Part shown: positions 14,167 to 23,596 of the stretch, in pieces
Layout of the letters: each line of letters opens with the position of its first letter
Position numbering within the stretch: the first letter of the stretch is position 1
DNA from: Chloroherpetonaceae bacterium
GTDB lineage: Bacteria > Bacteroidota > Chlorobiia > Chlorobiales > Thermochlorobacteraceae
NCBI GenBank assembly: GCA_033763895.1
Contig: JANRJQ010000004.1
Span: 669,001-733,000 of the forward strand
Reading direction: 5' to 3'
DNA: 64,000 nucleotides
The notes under the pieces: generated by a model
Told to the model about the DNA's origin: nothing
The model's database searches: none
Seen by the model: the letters and a program-made list of their open reading frames with translations, nothing else
Position numbers and translations under genes: made by a program

Positions 14167-16332
14167 TCACTCCATCCACTCCGGCATTCCCGTACTGAGG
14201 CTTTGGTTGATTTTGAAGGTTGCGAGAGTTGTCATGACTTGACTTTCGAATGAAATGGGTGCGCCGCCCTTTTGAATCGCATTCAGAAACGCCGCGACTT
14301 CCTCACGGTGGCCTTTCAATCCCGAAAACTCCCGCACCCGCTGCGCCCCTTGCTCCGAAAGTGTCACGGTTTTGAAATTATCCATCATCCCAATTCGCGC
14401 ACCGCCAAAAATTTCAATCCGCTCTTTCGGGAAAAGCTTATCGCCATTCGAGAGATAATGCACACACCCCACACTGCCATTTTTAAACCGCAGCGTAATC
14501 ACCAAGTTTTCACGCACGGCCGTCGGCAAAAGCTCGGCATAGACTTTTTCAATCGCCGAGCCAATGAGGAATTGAAGCGTATCGATAAAATGGCACCCTT
14601 CGCCAATGAGCCTGCCGCCGCCTTCACTGAGATCTTGTGTCCAATGGTCGGGCGGAAGCGGGCCGGCATTCACGCGGTAATGCACGGAAATTGGTTCTTT
14701 CAATGCTGAAAAATACGATTGAAGTGCGCGAACCGGCTCACTGAAGCGGCGGTTAAATCCGGTGAGCACCACCAAATTCGGATGTTTGGCTTTGGCTTCC
14801 ACAATCGCGCGAAGCCCGTTTTCATCAATTGAAAGTGGCTTTTCGACAAACACATGCTTGCCGGCTTCAAGCGCAGCAACCACCATCTCGGCATGCAGAT
14901 TGTGGCGGGTAGCAATCAAAACGGCGTCAATCGCGTCGTTCTCTAAAACGGCTTTGATCTCCGAAGTCGATTTCGCGAAGCCAAATTTCGATTTCACATT
15001 TTCCGCCGTGACTCCCGTAGCATTGCAAACGGTTTCTAAGCGCACCACTTCCGACGCTTTCAGCGCCGGAATCAAATAGCCTTGCGCAAAACTGCCCGCA
15101 CCGATAAAGCCGATGCCAAGTTTACCTTCCATTGGCTTTGGCTTCGTGGTTGATTTAGTGGATGAATCGTGTTTCGCTTTTTCCCAATAACCATCGGTGG
15201 AGTCGAAAGTCCCATAATCAAGCAGAATGCCGATGTAACGCTCTTTCACCTCACCACTGATGAGTTTATAAGCATCCGCGCCCGATTCAATCGGGAAGCG
15301 ATGCGTGGTGAGTTTATCGGTATTCATTCGTCCGGCGGCGCAAAGGTCAAGGAAGGCTTGCATATTGCGCTGCTCTGTCCAGCGGACATACCCGATGGGG
15401 TAATCAATTCCCTTTTCTTCGTAATTGGTATCGTAGCGGCCTGCGCCGTAAGAGCGCGACAGGCGAAAGTCTAATTCCTTCATATAATATGGGCCGCGGG
15501 GCAAGTTCATTCCCGTAACGCCAACCATCACCACGCGGCCACGGTCGCGCATGATTTCGGCGGCGAATTCGACGGGATCGTTTTGCGAAGTCGAAGCGGT
15601 AATAATAACGGCATCCACCCCAAAGCCATTGGTAAAGCCTTTGATTTCTTCCAAGATGGTTTCGCTTGAACGCGTTAGTGCAAGGTCAGCGCCGAGTTCC
15701 TTGGCAAGCCTTACGGAATCGGGATTGACATCGACGCCTATAACTTTTGCGCCGGAGGCTTTGAGCGATTGCAAAAGCAATTGCCCCACAAGTCCCAAAC
15801 CCAGCACAAGCACCGTTTCACCGAGTGTGACATTGGCTTGACGAAGCCCTTGTATGGCAATCGCGCCCAAAGTGGTGTAAGATGCGGCATCTTCGCCGAC
15901 GCCTTCAGGAATTTTCACACACAAGTTTTTTGGCACCACCACGAATTCGGCATGTGAAGCGTAGCCTTGCCCGGCGCACGCCACTTTATCGCCGGGGCGA
16001 ATGCCTGCAACGTCATCCGCCACTTCAAGCACGGTACCGGCGGTGGCATAACCCATTGCGGTATCGCTATTGAGCTTATTGAAGGCGCGGTCCAATGTTT
16101 CCAATATGCCTTGTTCTTTCATTTGTTTGAGCACAAGCTTCACAAGGTCGGGGCGAGAGCGTGCTTTTTCGAGCAAAGATTTTTTTCCGAAATCCACTTT
16201 CGTGCGTTCGGTTCCGGCACTGATTAAACTGTATCGGTTTCGAACCAAAATCATTCCGGGTTTGAGCGCGGGCATCGGAACTTCTTTGACTTTAATGGTG
16301 CCGCTTTGGGCATTTTGAACAAGCTGTTGCAT
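14167..16332 (-). CDS. Bi-domain oxidoreductase (zinc-type alcohol dehydrogenase plus Gfo/Idh/MocA)
   Basis: The 721-residue product fuses two NAD(P)-binding enzymes. Residues ~1-370 are a medium-chain dehydrogenase (SAGTERTKVDFGKKS, TAMGYATAGTV, GDKVACAGQGYASHAEF, and VLGLGLVGQLL as nucleotide site). Residues ~385-721 are a Gfo/Idh/MocA oxidoreductase (IGFIGAGSFAQGYLIPAL, then VEKPLSIDENGL and GEGCHFIDTLQFLIG). Such fusions occur in polysaccharide or glycan gene clusters, but the substrate is unknown and no such cluster is present here. It is divergent from bchF across 226 bases; any link with bacteriochlorophyll synthesis is speculative, although BchC next door is also a medium-chain dehydrogenase. 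Confidence 0.85.
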   Translation of the reverse strand: MQQLVQNAQSGTIKVKEVPMPALKPGMILVRNRYSLISAGTERTKVDFGKKSLLEKARSRPDLVKLVLKQMKEQGILETLDRAFNKLNSDTAMGYATAGTVLEVADDVAGIRPGDKVACAGQGYASHAEFVVVPKNLCVKIPEGVGEDAASYTTLGAIAIQGLRQANVTLGETVLVLGLGLVGQLLLQSLKASGAKVIGVDVNPDSVRLAKELGADLALTRSSETILEEIKGFTNGFGVDAVIITASTSQNDPVEFAAEIMRDRGRVVMVGVTGMNLPRGPYYMKELDFRLSRSYGAGRYDTNYEEKGIDYPIGYVRWTEQRNMQAFLDLCAAGRMNTDKLTTHRFPIESGADAYKLISGEVKERYIGILLDYGTFDSTDGYWEKAKHDSSTKSTTKPKPMEGKLGIGFIGAGSFAQGYLIPALKASEVVRLETVCNATGVTAENVKSKFGFAKSTSEIKAVLENDAIDAVLIATRHNLHAEMVVAALEAGKHVFVEKPLSIDENGLRAIVEAKAKHPNLVVLTGFNRRFSEPVRALQSYFSALKEPISVHYRVNAGPLPPDHWTQDLSEGGGRLIGEGCHFIDTLQFLIGSAIEKVYAELLPTAVRENLVITLRFKNGSVGCVHYLSNGDKLFPKERIEIFGGARIGMMDNFKTVTLSEQGAQRVREFSGLKGHREEVAAFLNAIQKGGAPISFESQVMTTLATFKINQSLSTGMPEWME

Positions 16333-16558: not shown

Positions 16559-17029
16559 ATGCCACGCTATACACCGGAGCAACTCCGTTTGCGCAACGCA
16601 TCGATTTGGACAAAAATTCAAATCATTCTTGCCCCGATTCAATTTTTTGTTTTCCTCGGCGGCTTGGTCATTACCTACCTCTATTACATCGATCAAATAC
16701 ACGATTTCTATTGGGTTACCATTGGTGTAGCTGTCAAAACACTCTTTTTCATCATACTCTTTGTAACCGGTGCCTTTTTTGAAAAGGAGGTCTTCGGCGA
16801 GTGGGTTTTTTCGCCGGAGTTTTATTGGGAAGATGTCGGCAGTTCAATTGCAATGGGTATTCACTTTTTGTATTTCATTTTGGCAATTTTTATTCACGAT
16901 CGAGAAGTATTGGTTTGGGCTGCATTTGCCGCTTACATCAGCTACCTCTTGAATGCATTGCAATATTTGATACGGATTTATTTAGAGAAACGAAACGAAA
17001 AACGCCTGCAAGCCCAAGGGTTGGTATAG
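16559..17029 (+). CDS. bchF: 3-vinyl bacteriochlorophyllide hydratase
   Basis: The 156-residue membrane protein matches BchF: it starts MPRYTPEQLRLRNASIWTKI, then ILAPIQFFVFLGGLVITYLY, VKTLFFIILFVTGAFFEKEV and FGEWVFSPEFYWEDVGSS, in the family order. Four transmembrane segments are seen. BchF hydrates the C3 vinyl group of chlorophyllide a (or the bacteriochlorin) to 3-hydroxyethyl on the way to bacteriochlorophyll a. It has an AAGGA ribosome site. The stop lies 17 bases before bchC, and bchX follows, so the three form one operon. Confidence 0.92.
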   Translation: MPRYTPEQLRLRNASIWTKIQIILAPIQFFVFLGGLVITYLYYIDQIHDFYWVTIGVAVKTLFFIILFVTGAFFEKEVFGEWVFSPEFYWEDVGSSIAMGIHFLYFILAIFIHDREVLVWAAFAAYISYLLNALQYLIRIYLEKRNEKRLQAQGLV

Positions 17030-17046: not shown

Positions 17047-18012
17047 ATGAGAACGAAAGCCGTGGTATTTACAGGCCCCAACCAAATTGAAATTCAAGAT
17101 GTTGGCTTGCGCGAAATGACGGATGAAGATGTGTTGGTGCGAACCGTTTGGTCAAGCGTCAGCGCAGGAACGGAAAAAATGCTTCTTTCGGGGAAATTGC
17201 CCACAATGCAAATGACCCAATTCCCCGTAATTCCGGGTTATGAAACCGTCGGAAAAATCATCGGTCGCGGCGATCATGTTCCCGAAGAGCTTTTAGGAAA
17301 GTATGTTTATGTTTCAGGCTCTTTCGGTTATGTGGGCGTCAATGCAGCCTTTGGCGGTGCCTCTCATAATTTGGTTTCGCCGGCGCATAAAGTCACACTT
17401 CTTGATTCACTTGAAAATCCAATGCTTGGCATTCTCCTTCCCCTTGCATCAACCGCGCTTCATATCATCGATCTCGCGGCAGTTAGGAACAAGCGCATTC
17501 TCATTTTAGGGCAAGGGGCGGTTGGGCTTTTAGTGGCTGAATTTGCGCGGCTTTTTGGCGCAAGTTTTATTGCCGCCACGGATCTCAATGCCGCCCGATT
17601 GGAAAAATCCGCCGCGCATTTACGAATCAACCTCACCGAAACCGGCAGTGCCGATGTCTTGATGGCAACACCCTTTGACGCAGTTATCGACTGCACGGGC
17701 TCAATGAATGCAATAGCTGAAAGCCTTCGCTATCTCAAAATGAATGCCGCTGTCATTCTTGGCGGATATTATGAAAAAATTGACTTGCCCTACAATATGG
17801 CCTTTATGAAAGAGCTACGCTTTCTCGTCGCGAAGCAGTGGGCAATGGGCGATCTCGACCGCGCACTCGATGTTATGGCAAAGCGCGAAATCGGGTTTGA
17901 AAAGATTATCACACATCAAAAGAGCGTTTGGACAGACATTGCACACAGTTATGATGCCGCTTTTCACGATTCCTCTTGCCTGAAATTGGTACTGGAGTGG
18001 GAAGCCGATTAA
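17047..18012 (+). CDS. bchC: 3-hydroxyethyl bacteriochlorophyllide a dehydrogenase
   Basis: The 321-residue product is a medium-chain dehydrogenase-like protein of the BchC type: KAVVFTGPNQIEIQDVGL at the start, WSSVSAGTEKMLLSG, PVIPGYETVGKI and the nucleotide-binding ILGQGAVGLLVAEF (near residue 155). Length equals that of known BchC. It oxidises the C3 hydroxyethyl group to acetyl, the last ring-side-chain step toward bacteriochlorophyllide a. A GGAG ribosome site stands eight bases before the ATG. It lies between bchF and bchX in the same direction. Confidence 0.93.
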   Translation: MRTKAVVFTGPNQIEIQDVGLREMTDEDVLVRTVWSSVSAGTEKMLLSGKLPTMQMTQFPVIPGYETVGKIIGRGDHVPEELLGKYVYVSGSFGYVGVNAAFGGASHNLVSPAHKVTLLDSLENPMLGILLPLASTALHIIDLAAVRNKRILILGQGAVGLLVAEFARLFGASFIAATDLNAARLEKSAAHLRINLTETGSADVLMATPFDAVIDCTGSMNAIAESLRYLKMNAAVILGGYYEKIDLPYNMAFMKELRFLVAKQWAMGDLDRALDVMAKREIGFEKIITHQKSVWTDIAHSYDAAFHDSSCLKLVLEWEAD

Positions 18013-18101: not shown

Positions 18102-19487
18102 ATGAATCCAATGCCTGCGAGAACGATCGCCATCTATGGAAAAGGCGGAATCGGTAAAAGTTTTACCACCACCAACTTAACAGCAACTTTTGCCAAATCG
18201 GGCAAACGCGCCCTTCAACTTGGCTGCGACCCAAAGCACGACTCCACAACCACCCTATTCGGCGGACTCTCATTGCCCACCGTTACTGAAGTCTTTGGCG
18301 AACGCACTATGAAACACGAAAAAGTGCAAGTGGAAGACATCGTCTTCAAACGCCACCCCGATTCGCTCACCGATTCGTGGGGCGATATTTTTGGCATCGA
18401 ACTCGGCGGCCCTGAAGTGGGGCGAGGCTGCGGCGGCAGAGGCATTATTTCAGGCTTTGATGTGCTCGAAAAGCTCGGTCTTTTCAAATGGGATTTGGAT
18501 GTGATTTTAATGGATTTTCTTGGGGATGTCGTATGCGGCGGCTTTGCAACACCACTCGCGCGTTCGCTTTGCGAAGAAGTGATTTTGGTGGTTTCGAATG
18601 ACCGGCAATCCATCTTCGCCGCCAATAATATTTGCATCGCCAATAATCACTTCAAAACCGTTGGCGGAACTTCGCGGCTATTGGGGCTCATCGTTAACCG
18701 CGATGATGGCAGCGGCATTGCCGATCGCTACGCCGAAGCCGCAGGGATTAATATTCTGATGAAATTGCCTTACAACTCCGAAGCGCGAGATAAAGCCGAT
18801 GGATTTGATTTAGCAATTCATTTGCCCGAAGTCGGGGAAAAGTACCATAGGCTTTGCGATCAAATTTGGAATCGCGAAGTGCCATATTGCGAAGCGAAAG
18901 GGCTGAATTATGATGATTTTATGAGGCTTTTCGGCGAAGTTGATTCCCGCAAACCAGACCCCGCTCATCCCGAAGACTTGCGGCTCTCCAAAAATTTAGA
19001 TCTCGATGCCGCAGCAATGGTCAAAGAGAAATTGGAAAAGGAAGCCGCGAAGGAAGCATTTATCGCAAACGGATTTAAGGCCGAAGGTAGCGGATTGATT
19101 TCGATTCAATTGCCAAAAGCTGAAAATACAATGGGCGATAAAGTGGCGATTGGCAGCAATGCGGCATCGCTTCCAGAAACAGATGAATTCATCAAAAAAG
19201 CTCCTGCAAAAAAATTGCCACCGATGGCCGCAAGAAAATTGGCGTCGCGCGCTGAGAACCCTTTGGCCGAAAAGCCAGCACCGCCGCCGAAGACAGACCA
19301 CGAGCGGCTTTTGGCTTGCATTGATGCCTTGCCGAAAGTCGAGCGCGAAATCATTACGCTTTTTGAGATTCGCAAAAAATCTTTAAGTGAAATTGCCATT
19401 GAACAGCATATAGAACAACGAGAAATTGAAACACATTTAAATAATGCTCGGTCTCGATTGAAATCGCTATTTTTCCAACTGGATTAA
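18102..19487 (+). CDS. bchX: Chlorophyllide reductase iron protein BchX with C-terminal sigma-70 region 4-like domain
   Basis: Residues ~1-290 are a NifH/BchL-type ATPase: P-loop YGKGGIGKSFTTTNL (the F after GKS is typical of BchX rather than BchL), CDPKHDSTT switch, and [4Fe-4S] cysteines in GRGCGGRG and DVVCGGF. It feeds electrons to BchYZ, which reduces the C7=C8 bond of chlorophyllide a. After a lysine/proline/alanine-rich linker, residues ~400-461 (from 19299) read DALPKVEREIITLFE then SLSEIAIEQHIEQREIETHL and NNARSRLKSLF, closely matching the sigma-70 region 4 helix-turn-helix. BchX is normally about 330-360 residues; here 461. Start chosen at 18102 (a second ATG at 18111); an earlier ATG at 18039 gives an unlikely leader. 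bchY and bchZ do not follow. Confidence 0.93.
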   Translation: MNPMPARTIAIYGKGGIGKSFTTTNLTATFAKSGKRALQLGCDPKHDSTTTLFGGLSLPTVTEVFGERTMKHEKVQVEDIVFKRHPDSLTDSWGDIFGIELGGPEVGRGCGGRGIISGFDVLEKLGLFKWDLDVILMDFLGDVVCGGFATPLARSLCEEVILVVSNDRQSIFAANNICIANNHFKTVGGTSRLLGLIVNRDDGSGIADRYAEAAGINILMKLPYNSEARDKADGFDLAIHLPEVGEKYHRLCDQIWNREVPYCEAKGLNYDDFMRLFGEVDSRKPDPAHPEDLRLSKNLDLDAAAMVKEKLEKEAAKEAFIANGFKAEGSGLISIQLPKAENTMGDKVAIGSNAASLPETDEFIKKAPAKKLPPMAARKLASRAENPLAEKPAPPPKTDHERLLACIDALPKVEREIITLFEIRKKSLSEIAIEQHIEQREIETHLNNARSRLKSLFFQLD

Positions 19488-19508: not shown

Positions 19509-19823
19509 ATGAATACCACCACATTAACGGCTGAAGAACTTCAAAGGCTTCATCAAGTCATTGGCGAAGTGCTCTCAGAAAAATTATTAAGCTTGCGCTC
19601 AAAAGCGGCCGATGACACCGCAACCAATGCAGATCGAGTAAATCTGAATTTTGCCGAAGAGGTTTTTGCGCTTGCTCGAAATCGATTTTCTGTTACCAAC
19701 AACGAAGCAAGCCATATGCAGGGCGGCGATGTTTGGGTTGAAAGAACAGGCGCTCATTACCCGCATATACGATTGCACGGCGGTGCACGCGATGAAGACG
19801 TTCCGCCTGCCTCAAAATCCTAA
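19509..19823 (+). CDS. Hypothetical protein downstream of bchX
   Basis: This 104-residue soluble protein follows bchX by 21 bases and probably shares its transcript. The N-terminal half is helical (LTAEELQRLHQVIGEVLSEK), the C-terminal half is polar with HYPHIRLHGG. I recognise no family. Codon usage resembles its neighbours and the frame is the only long one at this place. Its position suggests a role linked to bch genes, but nothing in the sequence confirms that. Confidence 0.6.
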   Translation: MNTTTLTAEELQRLHQVIGEVLSEKLLSLRSKAADDTATNADRVNLNFAEEVFALARNRFSVTNNEASHMQGGDVWVERTGAHYPHIRLHGGARDEDVPPASKS

Positions 19824-20005: not shown

Positions 20006-23000
20006 ATGTCTGCATTACTCGACCCTGTTGCAAAAGACTTAAGTTTTAAAACGATGGACGGTAACGAAGCGGTTTCACACATCGCCTACCGCACCAACGA
20101 AGTTATCGCCATTTATCCGATTACGCCCGCCTCTGCGATGGGTGAACTCTCCGATGAATGGGCAAGCAAAGAAATCGTGAATGTTTGGGGCACGGTTCCC
20201 AGTGTGGTTGAAATGCAATCCGAAGGCGGCGCAGCGGGCGCTGTTCACGGGGCATTACAAACCGGTTCACTCACGACCACATTTACGGCATCCCAAGGGC
20301 TATTGCTGATGATTCCAAACATGTATAAAATTGCCGGCGAACTCTCACCCTTCGTTTTGCATGTTGCCGCACGCTCTTTAGCTACGCAAGCCCTTTCCAT
20401 TTTTGGCGATCATAGCGATGTCATGTCGGTTCGCTCAACAGGCTTTGCGATGCTCTCTTCAAGCTCAGTGCAAGAAGCTCATGATTTTGCCTTGATTGCT
20501 CAAGTGGCCACACTAAAATCTCGCGTGCCAATTTTGCACTTCTTTGATGGCTTCCGCACCTCGCACGAGATTCAAAAAATTTCGGTTATTTCGGATGACA
20601 TCATCCGTCAGATGCTGCCTGAGTCACTCATTCGCACCCATCGCGAGCGGCGACTTGCTCCCGAGCATCCGGTGATTCGCGGTACGGCGCAAAATCCCGA
20701 TGTCTATTTCCAAGGCCGCGAAACCGCAAATCCTTTTTATGCTGCCGCTTCCGACATCATTCAAAAAACAATGAATGAATTTGCTGACCTCACCGGGCGC
20801 AGCTATCATATTTTCAACTACTTCGGGGCACTCGATGCCGAGCATATTATTATCATGATGGGCTCCGGTAACGAAACCGTCCGCGAGACCATCGCTGTTC
20901 TTAACAAGCAAGGGGAAAAGTATGGGCTTGTGACTTCGCATCTCTATCGCCCGTTTGATGTCAAAAAGTTTGTGGAATCTTTGCCCGCCACAACTAAAAC
21001 GATTGCCGTGCTTGACCGTACCAAAGAACCCGGCAGCACCGGCGAGCCGCTTTATCTTGATGTCATTAGCGCTCTTTATGAAGGGATGCAAAATGAATAC
21101 GGGAAAATTCGCCGGATGCCGAAAGTCGTTGGCGGCCGCTATGGCCTTTCTTCAAAAGAATTCACACCTGCAATGGTAAAAGGGGTTTATGAAAATCTGA
21201 AATCCGTTCAACCCAAAAATCACTTTACGATTGGCATCAACGACGATGTCTCGCATACCAGCCTTCCTTATGATGCCTCATTTTCAACTGAACCCGATAC
21301 GGTTGTCCGCGCTCTCTTTTTTGGATTAGGCGCCGATGGAACCGTGGGAGCCAATAAAAATTCGATTAAGATTATCGGTGAAAACACCGATCTCTACGCG
21401 CAGGGCTACTTTGTCTACGACTCAAAGAAATCAGGGTCAATGACAATTTCTCACCTGCGATTTGGCAGCTCGCCAATTCAATCGACTTATTTGGTAAGCC
21501 GCGCTAATTTTCTTGCATGCCATCAATGGGTTTTTCTTGATCGCTATGACATGCTCAAATTGCTCGTCAAAGGCGGCACTTTCCTCTTGAATTCTGCTTA
21601 CTCGGCTGAAGAGGTTTGGGATAAATTGCCCGCCAAAGTTCAAGAAGCCTTGATTGAAAAAGAAGCGAAGTTTTATGTGATTGATGCCTATAAAGTGGCG
21701 CGAGATAACGGAATGACCGGCAGAATCAATACGGTGATGCAAACCTGTTTCTTTGCCATTTCAGGAGCATTACCCAAAGACGAGGCAATCCATCAAATCA
21801 AAGATTCGATTAAAAAAACCTATCAAAAAAAGGGGGATGCTGTCGTGGCAAAAAATATTGCAGCGGTTGATGACACCTTGGCACATTTATATCAAGTGGC
21901 TATCAAAAAGGAAATCACCAGCAATATTCCAATGCGACACGCCGTTACAGAAGACGCACCCGATTTTGTTTGCGATGTACTTGGGAACATCATCAGCGGC
22001 TTAGGCGATGATTTGCCTGTAAGCGTCTTTCCTGTTGACGGGACTTATCCTGTTGGCACAGCTCGTTATGAAAAACGCAACCTTGCCGAAAACATCCCGG
22101 TGTGGGATATGGATCTCTGCATTCAATGCGGCAAGTGCTCAATGATTTGCCCGCACGCCGCCATCCGCGTTAAAGTCTATGAACCTGAACTGGTGGCCAA
22201 TGCGCCTGAAACCTTCAAATCTACGGCCGGAAAAGACCGCTCGTGGCAAGGGCTGAATTATACCATTCAAGTCGCACCTGAAGATTGCACCGGCTGTACG
22301 CTTTGCGTGGATATTTGCCCCGCGAAGAGCAAAACCGACCCCAATCATCATGCCTTGAATATGTCGCCTCAGGCAGCCCTTTTGGAAGCTGAAAAGAAAA
22401 ACTGGTCTTACTTCCTAAACTTACCCGAGTATGACCGCCGCAAAATCAATGTGAGTGCCATTAAACAACAGCAGTTGCAAGAGCCGCTCTTTGAATTCTC
22501 CGGTGCTTGTTCCGGCTGTGGCGAAACACCATATCTGAAACTTCTTACACAACTCTTTGGCGACCGTGCCGTTGTGGCCAACGCCACCGGCTGCTCTTCC
22601 ATTTTTGGTGGAAATTTACCCACCACACCGTGGAGCAAAAATGCACAAGGCTTAGGGCCGGCGTGGGCAAATTCGCTCTTCGAAGACAATGCGGAGTTTG
22701 GTTTCGGATTCCGTGTTTCGATTGATAAACAAGAAGATCGTGCGAAATATCTCTTAAGAAGCATTGCCTCAGAAATTGGAGATGATCTAGCAACAGCCAT
22801 TCTCAACGCTTCGCAAAAAACCGAAGCCGAAATTTATGATCAACGCACCCGTGTGGACATTTTGAAAGAGAAGCTTGCTGTTTCAACTACACCGAATGCC
22901 ATTGAACTTCGATTCCTTGCCGATATGCTCGTGAAGAAATCGGTTTGGATTGTCGGCGGCGACGGCTGGGCGTATGACATCGGCTACGGCGGGCTTGATC

Positions 23001-23596
23001 ATGTTCTTGCAAGCGGCAAGAATGTCAATATTCTTGTGCTTGATACCGAAGTCTATTCCAACACCGGCGGTCAAGCCTCGAAAGCTACACCGCGCAGCGC
23101 GGTCGCGAAATTTGCTTCTGGCGGGAAACCCGGCCGAAAGAAAGATTTGGGGCTGATTGCAATGACGTATGAAAATGTGTATGTCGCCTCGGTAGCAATG
23201 GGCGCCCGCGATGAACATACGCTTAAGGCCTTCTTGGAAGCTGAGCAATATGAAGGGGTTTCGATAATCATTGCTTATTCGCATTGCATCGCGCACGGAA
23301 TGGAAATGTCGGAGTCGCTCGGGCATCAAAAAGCAATTGTTGATTCTGGTCAATGGCTGCTTTATCGCTACAACCCCGATTTCATCGCAAAAGGTGAAAA
23401 CCCGTTGAAGTTGGATAGCAAACCGCCGAAGATACAAGCGTCGGATTTCTTGCATCTTGAAAACCGCTTTAATGCGCTTGAAAAATTGAACCCGAAGGAG
23501 GCCGAGCATCTCTTCAAAGAGGTTCAGAACGATATAACCGTTCGGTATCAATTGTACGAATTCTTGGCATCACGAAAACCAACACCATTGGGATAA
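20006..23596 (+). CDS. nifJ: Pyruvate:ferredoxin (flavodoxin) oxidoreductase
   Basis: The 1196-residue single-chain enzyme has the full domain order: N-terminal pyruvate-binding domain (YPITPASAMGELSDEW), central domain, a two-cluster ferredoxin domain (CIQCGKCSMICPHA near residue 703 and CTGCTLCVDICPAKS near 763), and the TPP domain with ACSGCGETPY, NATGCSSIFGG and GDGWAYDIGYGG plus DTEVYSNTGGQ. It interconverts pyruvate + CoA and acetyl-CoA + CO2 with ferredoxin. In green bacteria it can work in either direction. An ideal AAGGAG stands eight bases before the ATG. It is transcribed alone or after the bch operon; 182 bases separate them. The enzyme is usually O2-sensitive, which contrasts with the O2-requiring CrtW. 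Confidence 0.97.
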   Translation: MSALLDPVAKDLSFKTMDGNEAVSHIAYRTNEVIAIYPITPASAMGELSDEWASKEIVNVWGTVPSVVEMQSEGGAAGAVHGALQTGSLTTTFTASQGLLLMIPNMYKIAGELSPFVLHVAARSLATQALSIFGDHSDVMSVRSTGFAMLSSSSVQEAHDFALIAQVATLKSRVPILHFFDGFRTSHEIQKISVISDDIIRQMLPESLIRTHRERRLAPEHPVIRGTAQNPDVYFQGRETANPFYAAASDIIQKTMNEFADLTGRSYHIFNYFGALDAEHIIIMMGSGNETVRETIAVLNKQGEKYGLVTSHLYRPFDVKKFVESLPATTKTIAVLDRTKEPGSTGEPLYLDVISALYEGMQNEYGKIRRMPKVVGGRYGLSSKEFTPAMVKGVYENLKSVQPKNHFTIGINDDVSHTSLPYDASFSTEPDTVVRALFFGLGADGTVGANKNSIKIIGENTDLYAQGYFVYDSKKSGSMTISHLRFGSSPIQSTYLVSRANFLACHQWVFLDRYDMLKLLVKGGTFLLNSAYSAEEVWDKLPAKVQEALIEKEAKFYVIDAYKVARDNGMTGRINTVMQTCFFAISGALPKDEAIHQIKDSIKKTYQKKGDAVVAKNIAAVDDTLAHLYQVAIKKEITSNIPMRHAVTEDAPDFVCDVLGNIISGLGDDLPVSVFPVDGTYPVGTARYEKRNLAENIPVWDMDLCIQCGKCSMICPHAAIRVKVYEPELVANAPETFKSTAGKDRSWQGLNYTIQVAPEDCTGCTLCVDICPAKSKTDPNHHALNMSPQAALLEAEKKNWSYFLNLPEYDRRKINVSAIKQQQLQEPLFEFSGACSGCGETPYLKLLTQLFGDRAVVANATGCSSIFGGNLPTTPWSKNAQGLGPAWANSLFEDNAEFGFGFRVSIDKQEDRAKYLLRSIASEIGDDLATAILNASQKTEAEIYDQRTRVDILKEKLAVSTTPNAIELRFLADMLVKKSVWIVGGDGWAYDIGYGGLDHVLASGKNVNILVLDTEVYSNTGGQASKATPRSAVAKFASGGKPGRKKDLGLIAMTYENVYVASVAMGARDEHTLKAFLEAEQYEGVSIIIAYSHCIAHGMEMSESLGHQKAIVDSGQWLLYRYNPDFIAKGENPLKLDSKPPKIQASDFLHLENRFNALEKLNPKEAEHLFKEVQNDITVRYQLYEFLASRKPTPLG

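Follow-up and report, generated by a model that had tools for sequence, protein, structure and literature searches.

PhyR has a sigma-derived domain that binds protein, not DNA; this domain has σ2-like and σ4-like parts and is joined to a receiver. Region 4 of the ECF sigma factors is a helix-turn-helix, and its contact residues are known from SigE and SigW region 4 structures with the -35 element bound (PMC6713349). A regulatory terminal extension has precedent on an iron protein of the COR/DPOR type. BchL of the DPOR from Rhodobacter sphaeroides has a flexible N-terminal tail that shields the 4Fe-4S docking face as long as ATP is not bound, mutating this tail makes the enzyme about two-fold faster, and a tail of the BchL type is reported to be absent from BchX (PMC7948495). 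The BchX of Pseudomonadota, in five records of 328-341 aa, has an N-terminal extension, a NifH-type core and a short C-terminus (...PSLEV.YDD.), and has no σ4 domain. Among open-licence papers, none was found about a C-terminal sigma-like domain in BchX, although it may be described elsewhere.

The window analysed here is a stretch of 64,000 nucleotides from a Chloroherpetonaceae bacterium (C4:669001-733000, where C4 is the contig of the window). The bchX gene lies at 18102..19487 on the + strand as a single uninterrupted frame of 461 codons and a stop, and encodes the iron protein of chlorophyllide a reductase (COR) followed by a σ4-like C-terminal domain. Residues 7-266 are assigned to BchX by the NCBI equivalog TIGR02016 (400.3 bits against a cutoff of 331.2, E 4.8e-120), and residues 7-259 match Fer4_NifH (PF00142, E 1e-73). 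The NifH/BchX P-loop ATPase core (residues 7-260, 18120..18881, +) is 44-51% identical to that of Pseudomonadota. It has a mostly invariant P-loop, GKGGIGKS (18138-18161, +), and the two cysteines that ligate the 4Fe-4S cluster, C110 (18429-18431, +) and C145 (18534-18536, +), are both preserved and invariant in the same comparison. In both groups the gene adjoins bchC. The genome also encodes BchY (533 bits, C4:613860-615065) and a BchZ-type protein (C4:919157-920098), the latter assigned from its sequence and a weak BchB match. Together the equivalog match, the P-loop, the two cysteines and the encoded BchY and BchZ-type partners indicate that the window protein is a member of the BchX family. 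Unlike its Pseudomonadota counterparts, Chlorobiales BchX lacks the N-terminal extension and has a folded domain at the opposite end.

This domain, a σ70 region-4-like helix-turn-helix with four model helices, spans residues 401-453 (19302..19460, +). The PF08281 profile (Sigma70_r4_2), with a gathering score of 25.7 bits, scores 30.5 bits on the full protein (E 2.8e-7) and 35.8 bits on the last 62 aa (E 6.2e-9); the match of PF04545 to the tail falls below the cutoff of that profile. The initial annotation had read an extra C-terminal region-4-like domain from 19299 (residue 400) and named these two profiles as its check; it placed the start and the helices correctly, and the first profile bears it out. 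All 27 divergent Chlorobiales tail representatives match PF08281 by themselves, the best at E 1.5e-13, and one complete BchX from another family (f3) scores 43.5 bits. Against the PDB, a profile made from the 27 representatives matches SigE region 4 (2h27, E 7e-7) along with further sigma factors; its top match is a repeat protein, of which single repeats score just ~15 bits. With ECF region 4 (PF08281; SigE 2h27, SigW 6jhe) the tail shares the helix-turn-helix profile, the core hydrophobics, Glu430 and the Ala-Arg pair at 449-450, and the profile matches indicate that the two are homologous. It differs in being joined to an ATPase, in its closing Leu-Phe-Phe and in the loss of most -35 contacts. 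Profile searches of the full protein gave no match to sigma region 2 anywhere, in agreement with the earlier remark that BchX is not itself a sigma factor; with region 4 unpaired, the window protein is not an ECF sigma factor. By its architecture it is not a PhyR-type sigma mimic either, since it has a σ4-like part alone and neither the σ2 part nor the receiver of PhyR.

The core and the domain are connected by a linker at residues 293-397 (18978..19292, +), placed by alignments and predicted to be disordered, with a pLDDT of ~30. Its length and content vary between homologues. It had been described as rich in Lys, Pro and Ala, which is true of the tether at about residues 364-397 but not of residues 333-363 (19098-19190). 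The latter form a block (IxIxLP...N.xGDKxAIGxNAxSLPExDEF) that is conserved in the window's family and in family f4, and is missing from Chlorobiaceae-type BchX. The full-length AlphaFold model, made from three sequences, is poor overall, with a mean pLDDT of 46, and the tail is its confident part, with helices at 399-408, 412-423, 428-435 and 439-459 (pLDDT 78-89). A Foldseek search with this model returned NifH-like chains that match the core only. Modelled alone, also from three sequences, the tail becomes one long helix (pTM 0.47) with no significant Foldseek match, and this second model was discarded. The fold assignment rests on the sequence profiles, not on the AlphaFold models.

Among 297 genomes searched throughout the phylum, 75 from Chlorobiales gave a BchX match; these represent four GTDB families (f1, the window's family, and f2-f4). 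One match outside Chlorobiales (E 2.2e-42) was left out, its strength being like that of NifH/BchL-type paralogues. Read directly at their C-termini, all 75 proteins end in the domain, ~58 residues in the same frame as the core, and the tail closes with Leu-Phe-Phe in 73 and with Leu-Tyr-Phe in one. The initial annotation had asked whether other Chlorobiota BchX share the tail, and the alignment of tails across families answers that every one examined does. The tail first looked restricted to the window's family because BLAST covered it in f1 and f4 only, the Chlorobiaceae alignment ending near residue 293. That restriction is wrong, since the tails of f2 and f3 have diverged yet match PF08281. 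Presence in every examined Chlorobiales BchX is most simply explained by inheritance from a common ancestor. The same one-frame fusion in 75 separate genomes also disposes of an early concern that an assembly or sequencing frameshift had joined bchX to a neighbouring sigma gene; nothing was found in favour of this, its chance is practically negligible, and it was rejected. A search for BchX in viral contigs gave nothing, and a Chlorohelix plasmid match was rejected as BchX because it is NifH.

The tail can be aligned with SigE without gaps through the helix-turn-helix, which gives eight contact positions to compare. In the former recognition helix of the window protein (residues 439-455, 19416..19466, +), SigE T169, R171, S172, R173, F175 and R176 are replaced by E, E, T, H, N and N, so that two of the listed contacts are now Glu, and R178, present as R450, is the sole one retained. 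Most of the 75 tails have E/A/D at the T169 position, E/A at S172, L at R173, A/S at F175 and S/N/A at R176. The R171 position is K or R in 43 of them, and the Arg equivalent to R178, a phosphate contact in SigE, is retained in 70. Averaged over the BchX tails, the recognition helix has a net charge of +0.25, and the mean for 20 ECF domains from the same family is +3.4 (Mann-Whitney P 5e-9, indicative only because the sequences are related). Contact positions in the tails have a mean entropy of 2.07 bits, against 1.66 bits elsewhere. The control was one ECF sigma factor present in 92 of 98 Chlorobiales genomes, of which 30 were compared at the same positions, and seven of its eight contact positions are invariant; since the control is more conserved overall, the lost chemical types weigh as much as the variability. 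The window tail lacks most of the -35 binding residues of the PF08281 type, and with contacts and charge lost in the tails and the contacts invariant in the control, DNA binding in the usual mode is unlikely.

These comparisons bear on the idea that the tail is a working DNA-binding domain and that BchX also serves as a regulator responding to redox state or ATP, somewhat as P1 ParA-type ATPases carry a helix-turn-helix. The clear σ4 homology agrees with it, as do the widely kept Arg at the R178 position and the basic residue that many tails have at R171. The equivalents of T169, S172, R173, F175 and R176 are mostly gone, however, the contact positions are no better conserved than the rest of the tail, and E441 and E443 of the window protein would face the DNA in a helix that has lost its positive charge. 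This reading is decidedly improbable, and the proposal in the initial annotation that a DNA-binding module ties pigment synthesis to transcription is not supported.

The tail changes roughly four times as fast as the core, and its divergence tracks that of the core pairwise (r = 0.66). By the Nei-Gojobori method on close pairs, dN/dS is ~0.27 for the tail and 0.07 for the core, with dS near saturation in many pairs, and the tail is under purifying selection. Several tail residues are near-fixed among the 75 sequences: C406 (71), L410 (75), A449 (75), R450 (70), L456 (75), F457 (74) and F458 (74). Cys406 is in the first helix of the domain (19317..19319, +), and the closing motif L456-F457-F458 (19467..19475, +) lies at and past the end of the σ4 profile. 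The conserved residues make up the packing stripe of the domain together with the closing motif, away from the DNA face, and the conserved Phe-Phe past the profile end suggests a contact surface. The tail could instead be a passive appendage, acquired by chance and kept as a cap that aids folding or solubility but has no specific partner. Its higher dN/dS and the variable linker are what such an appendage would show, but there are zero losses in 75 genomes and C406, L410, A449, L456, F457 and F458 are near-invariant; F457 and F458, being past the matched profile, should drift if they were useless. A passive appendage is unlikely.

The explanation that we favour, with modest confidence, is that BchX acquired an ECF σ4 module in a single ancestral capture and that this module was later turned into a handle for protein docking or regulation of the COR reductase. 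The capture would have taken place at the 3' end of bchX, and subsequent loss of DNA recognition would have left a tethered handle on the iron protein. Because the DNA-reading residues are lost and the domain is kept by selection, the tail is probably such a docking or control handle and not a transcription switch. Binding may occur through the conserved non-DNA face (Cys406, Leu410, Ala449/Arg450 and the closing Leu-Phe-Phe), the candidate targets being the BchX dimer, BchYZ or some other partner, and it would regulate docking, stability or the delivery of electrons as bacteriochlorophyll a is made. For such a role the closest working analogy is the N-terminal tail of BchL, a terminal extension that sits on a homologous iron protein and could govern its docking to the catalytic subunit, although it is at the other end, unstructured and unrelated in sequence. 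Some observations sit less well with a docking handle. No complementary extra domain or receptor segment was seen in the BchY of the family, which makes self-docking or another partner as likely; Arg450 and the K/R at the R171 position leave room for weak DNA contact; and the structural models are those made from three sequences, in which the isolated tail is one long helix.

Seven of the 27 tails weakly match the PhyR sigma-like profile, and since PhyR binds protein, this is consistent with a docking handle. It is equally what would be expected of sigma mimicry, in which the tail, bound to an anti-sigma factor or to the β flap of RNA polymerase, would link the state of COR to transcription with no contact to DNA, as in the PhyR-NepR pair. 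The retention of the σ4 fold residues with loss of the DNA contacts also fits mimicry, but PhyR also uses its σ2-like domain, which BchX does not have, and the gene neighbourhood offers no obvious partner. The bchF gene (16559..17029, +; BCHF, PF07284, E 1.8e-53) is the first of a bchF-bchC-bchX cluster whose order is the same in the four families, and bchC (17047..18012, +; TIGR01202, E 7.7e-93) is directly upstream of bchX and adjacent to it in every Chlorobiales locus compared. No regulator or anti-sigma gene is conserved near this cluster in these loci, which argues against mimicry, and we consider mimicry quite improbable; the same result agrees with the docking handle. Taken broadly, the possibility that the Chlorobiales COR iron protein moonlights in gene regulation, with the tail bound to RNA polymerase, to an anti-sigma factor or, in some unusual mode, to DNA, is clearly unlikely. 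If it were true, a bacteriochlorophyll enzyme would tune transcription directly through its nucleotide or redox state.

Two genes downstream of the cluster are not shared in this way. A 104-aa ORF with no family assigned (19509-19823) lies just downstream of bchX and is absent beside bchX in the relatives compared. Also downstream is a pyruvate:ferredoxin oxidoreductase of the nifJ type (20006-23596, 1196 aa), which does not occupy this position in the relatives compared. On the - strand, 14167-16332 encodes a 721-aa protein in which a zinc-type alcohol dehydrogenase is fused to a GFO/IDH/MocA oxidoreductase. The locus has no relationship to defence systems.

A domain of the promoter-recognition type has become fixed in a nitrogenase-like reductase throughout an entire phototroph order. 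Domain databases will show the combined architecture implicitly. The tail appears to be a clean case of a DNA-binding domain that loses DNA recognition and yet is retained, and it points to a step of control or assembly in bacteriochlorophyll a synthesis that has gone unrecognised. Since purple-bacterial BchX does not have the domain, COR biochemistry learned there may not transfer to green sulfur bacteria.

A separate observation on the window's genome may be a more consequential lead than the σ4 tail. In this genome (G000, 99% complete) and in its relatives of g2 and g4, searches for BchL, BchB and BchN gave nothing above the level of paralogues, and light-dependent POR had no match above cutoff. 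The relatives that share these absences are G079, G133, G233, G285 and G297, the last of which is incomplete. BchX, BchY and the bacteriochlorophyll a-binding FMO protein are retained in all near-complete genomes of this set; in G297, BchX is present, BchY is only a fragment and FMO is not present. Candidate routes from protochlorophyllide are BchXYZ doing both steps, an unidentified enzyme, or chlorophyllide uptake. Three genomes of genus g3 in the same family retain BchL and BchB, with BchL split in G269. The BchX of G269 (L006) also ends differently, with ...LKELF followed by ~20 unrelated residues in place of F-QxE; a frameshift or misassembly of this last stretch is the likely cause.
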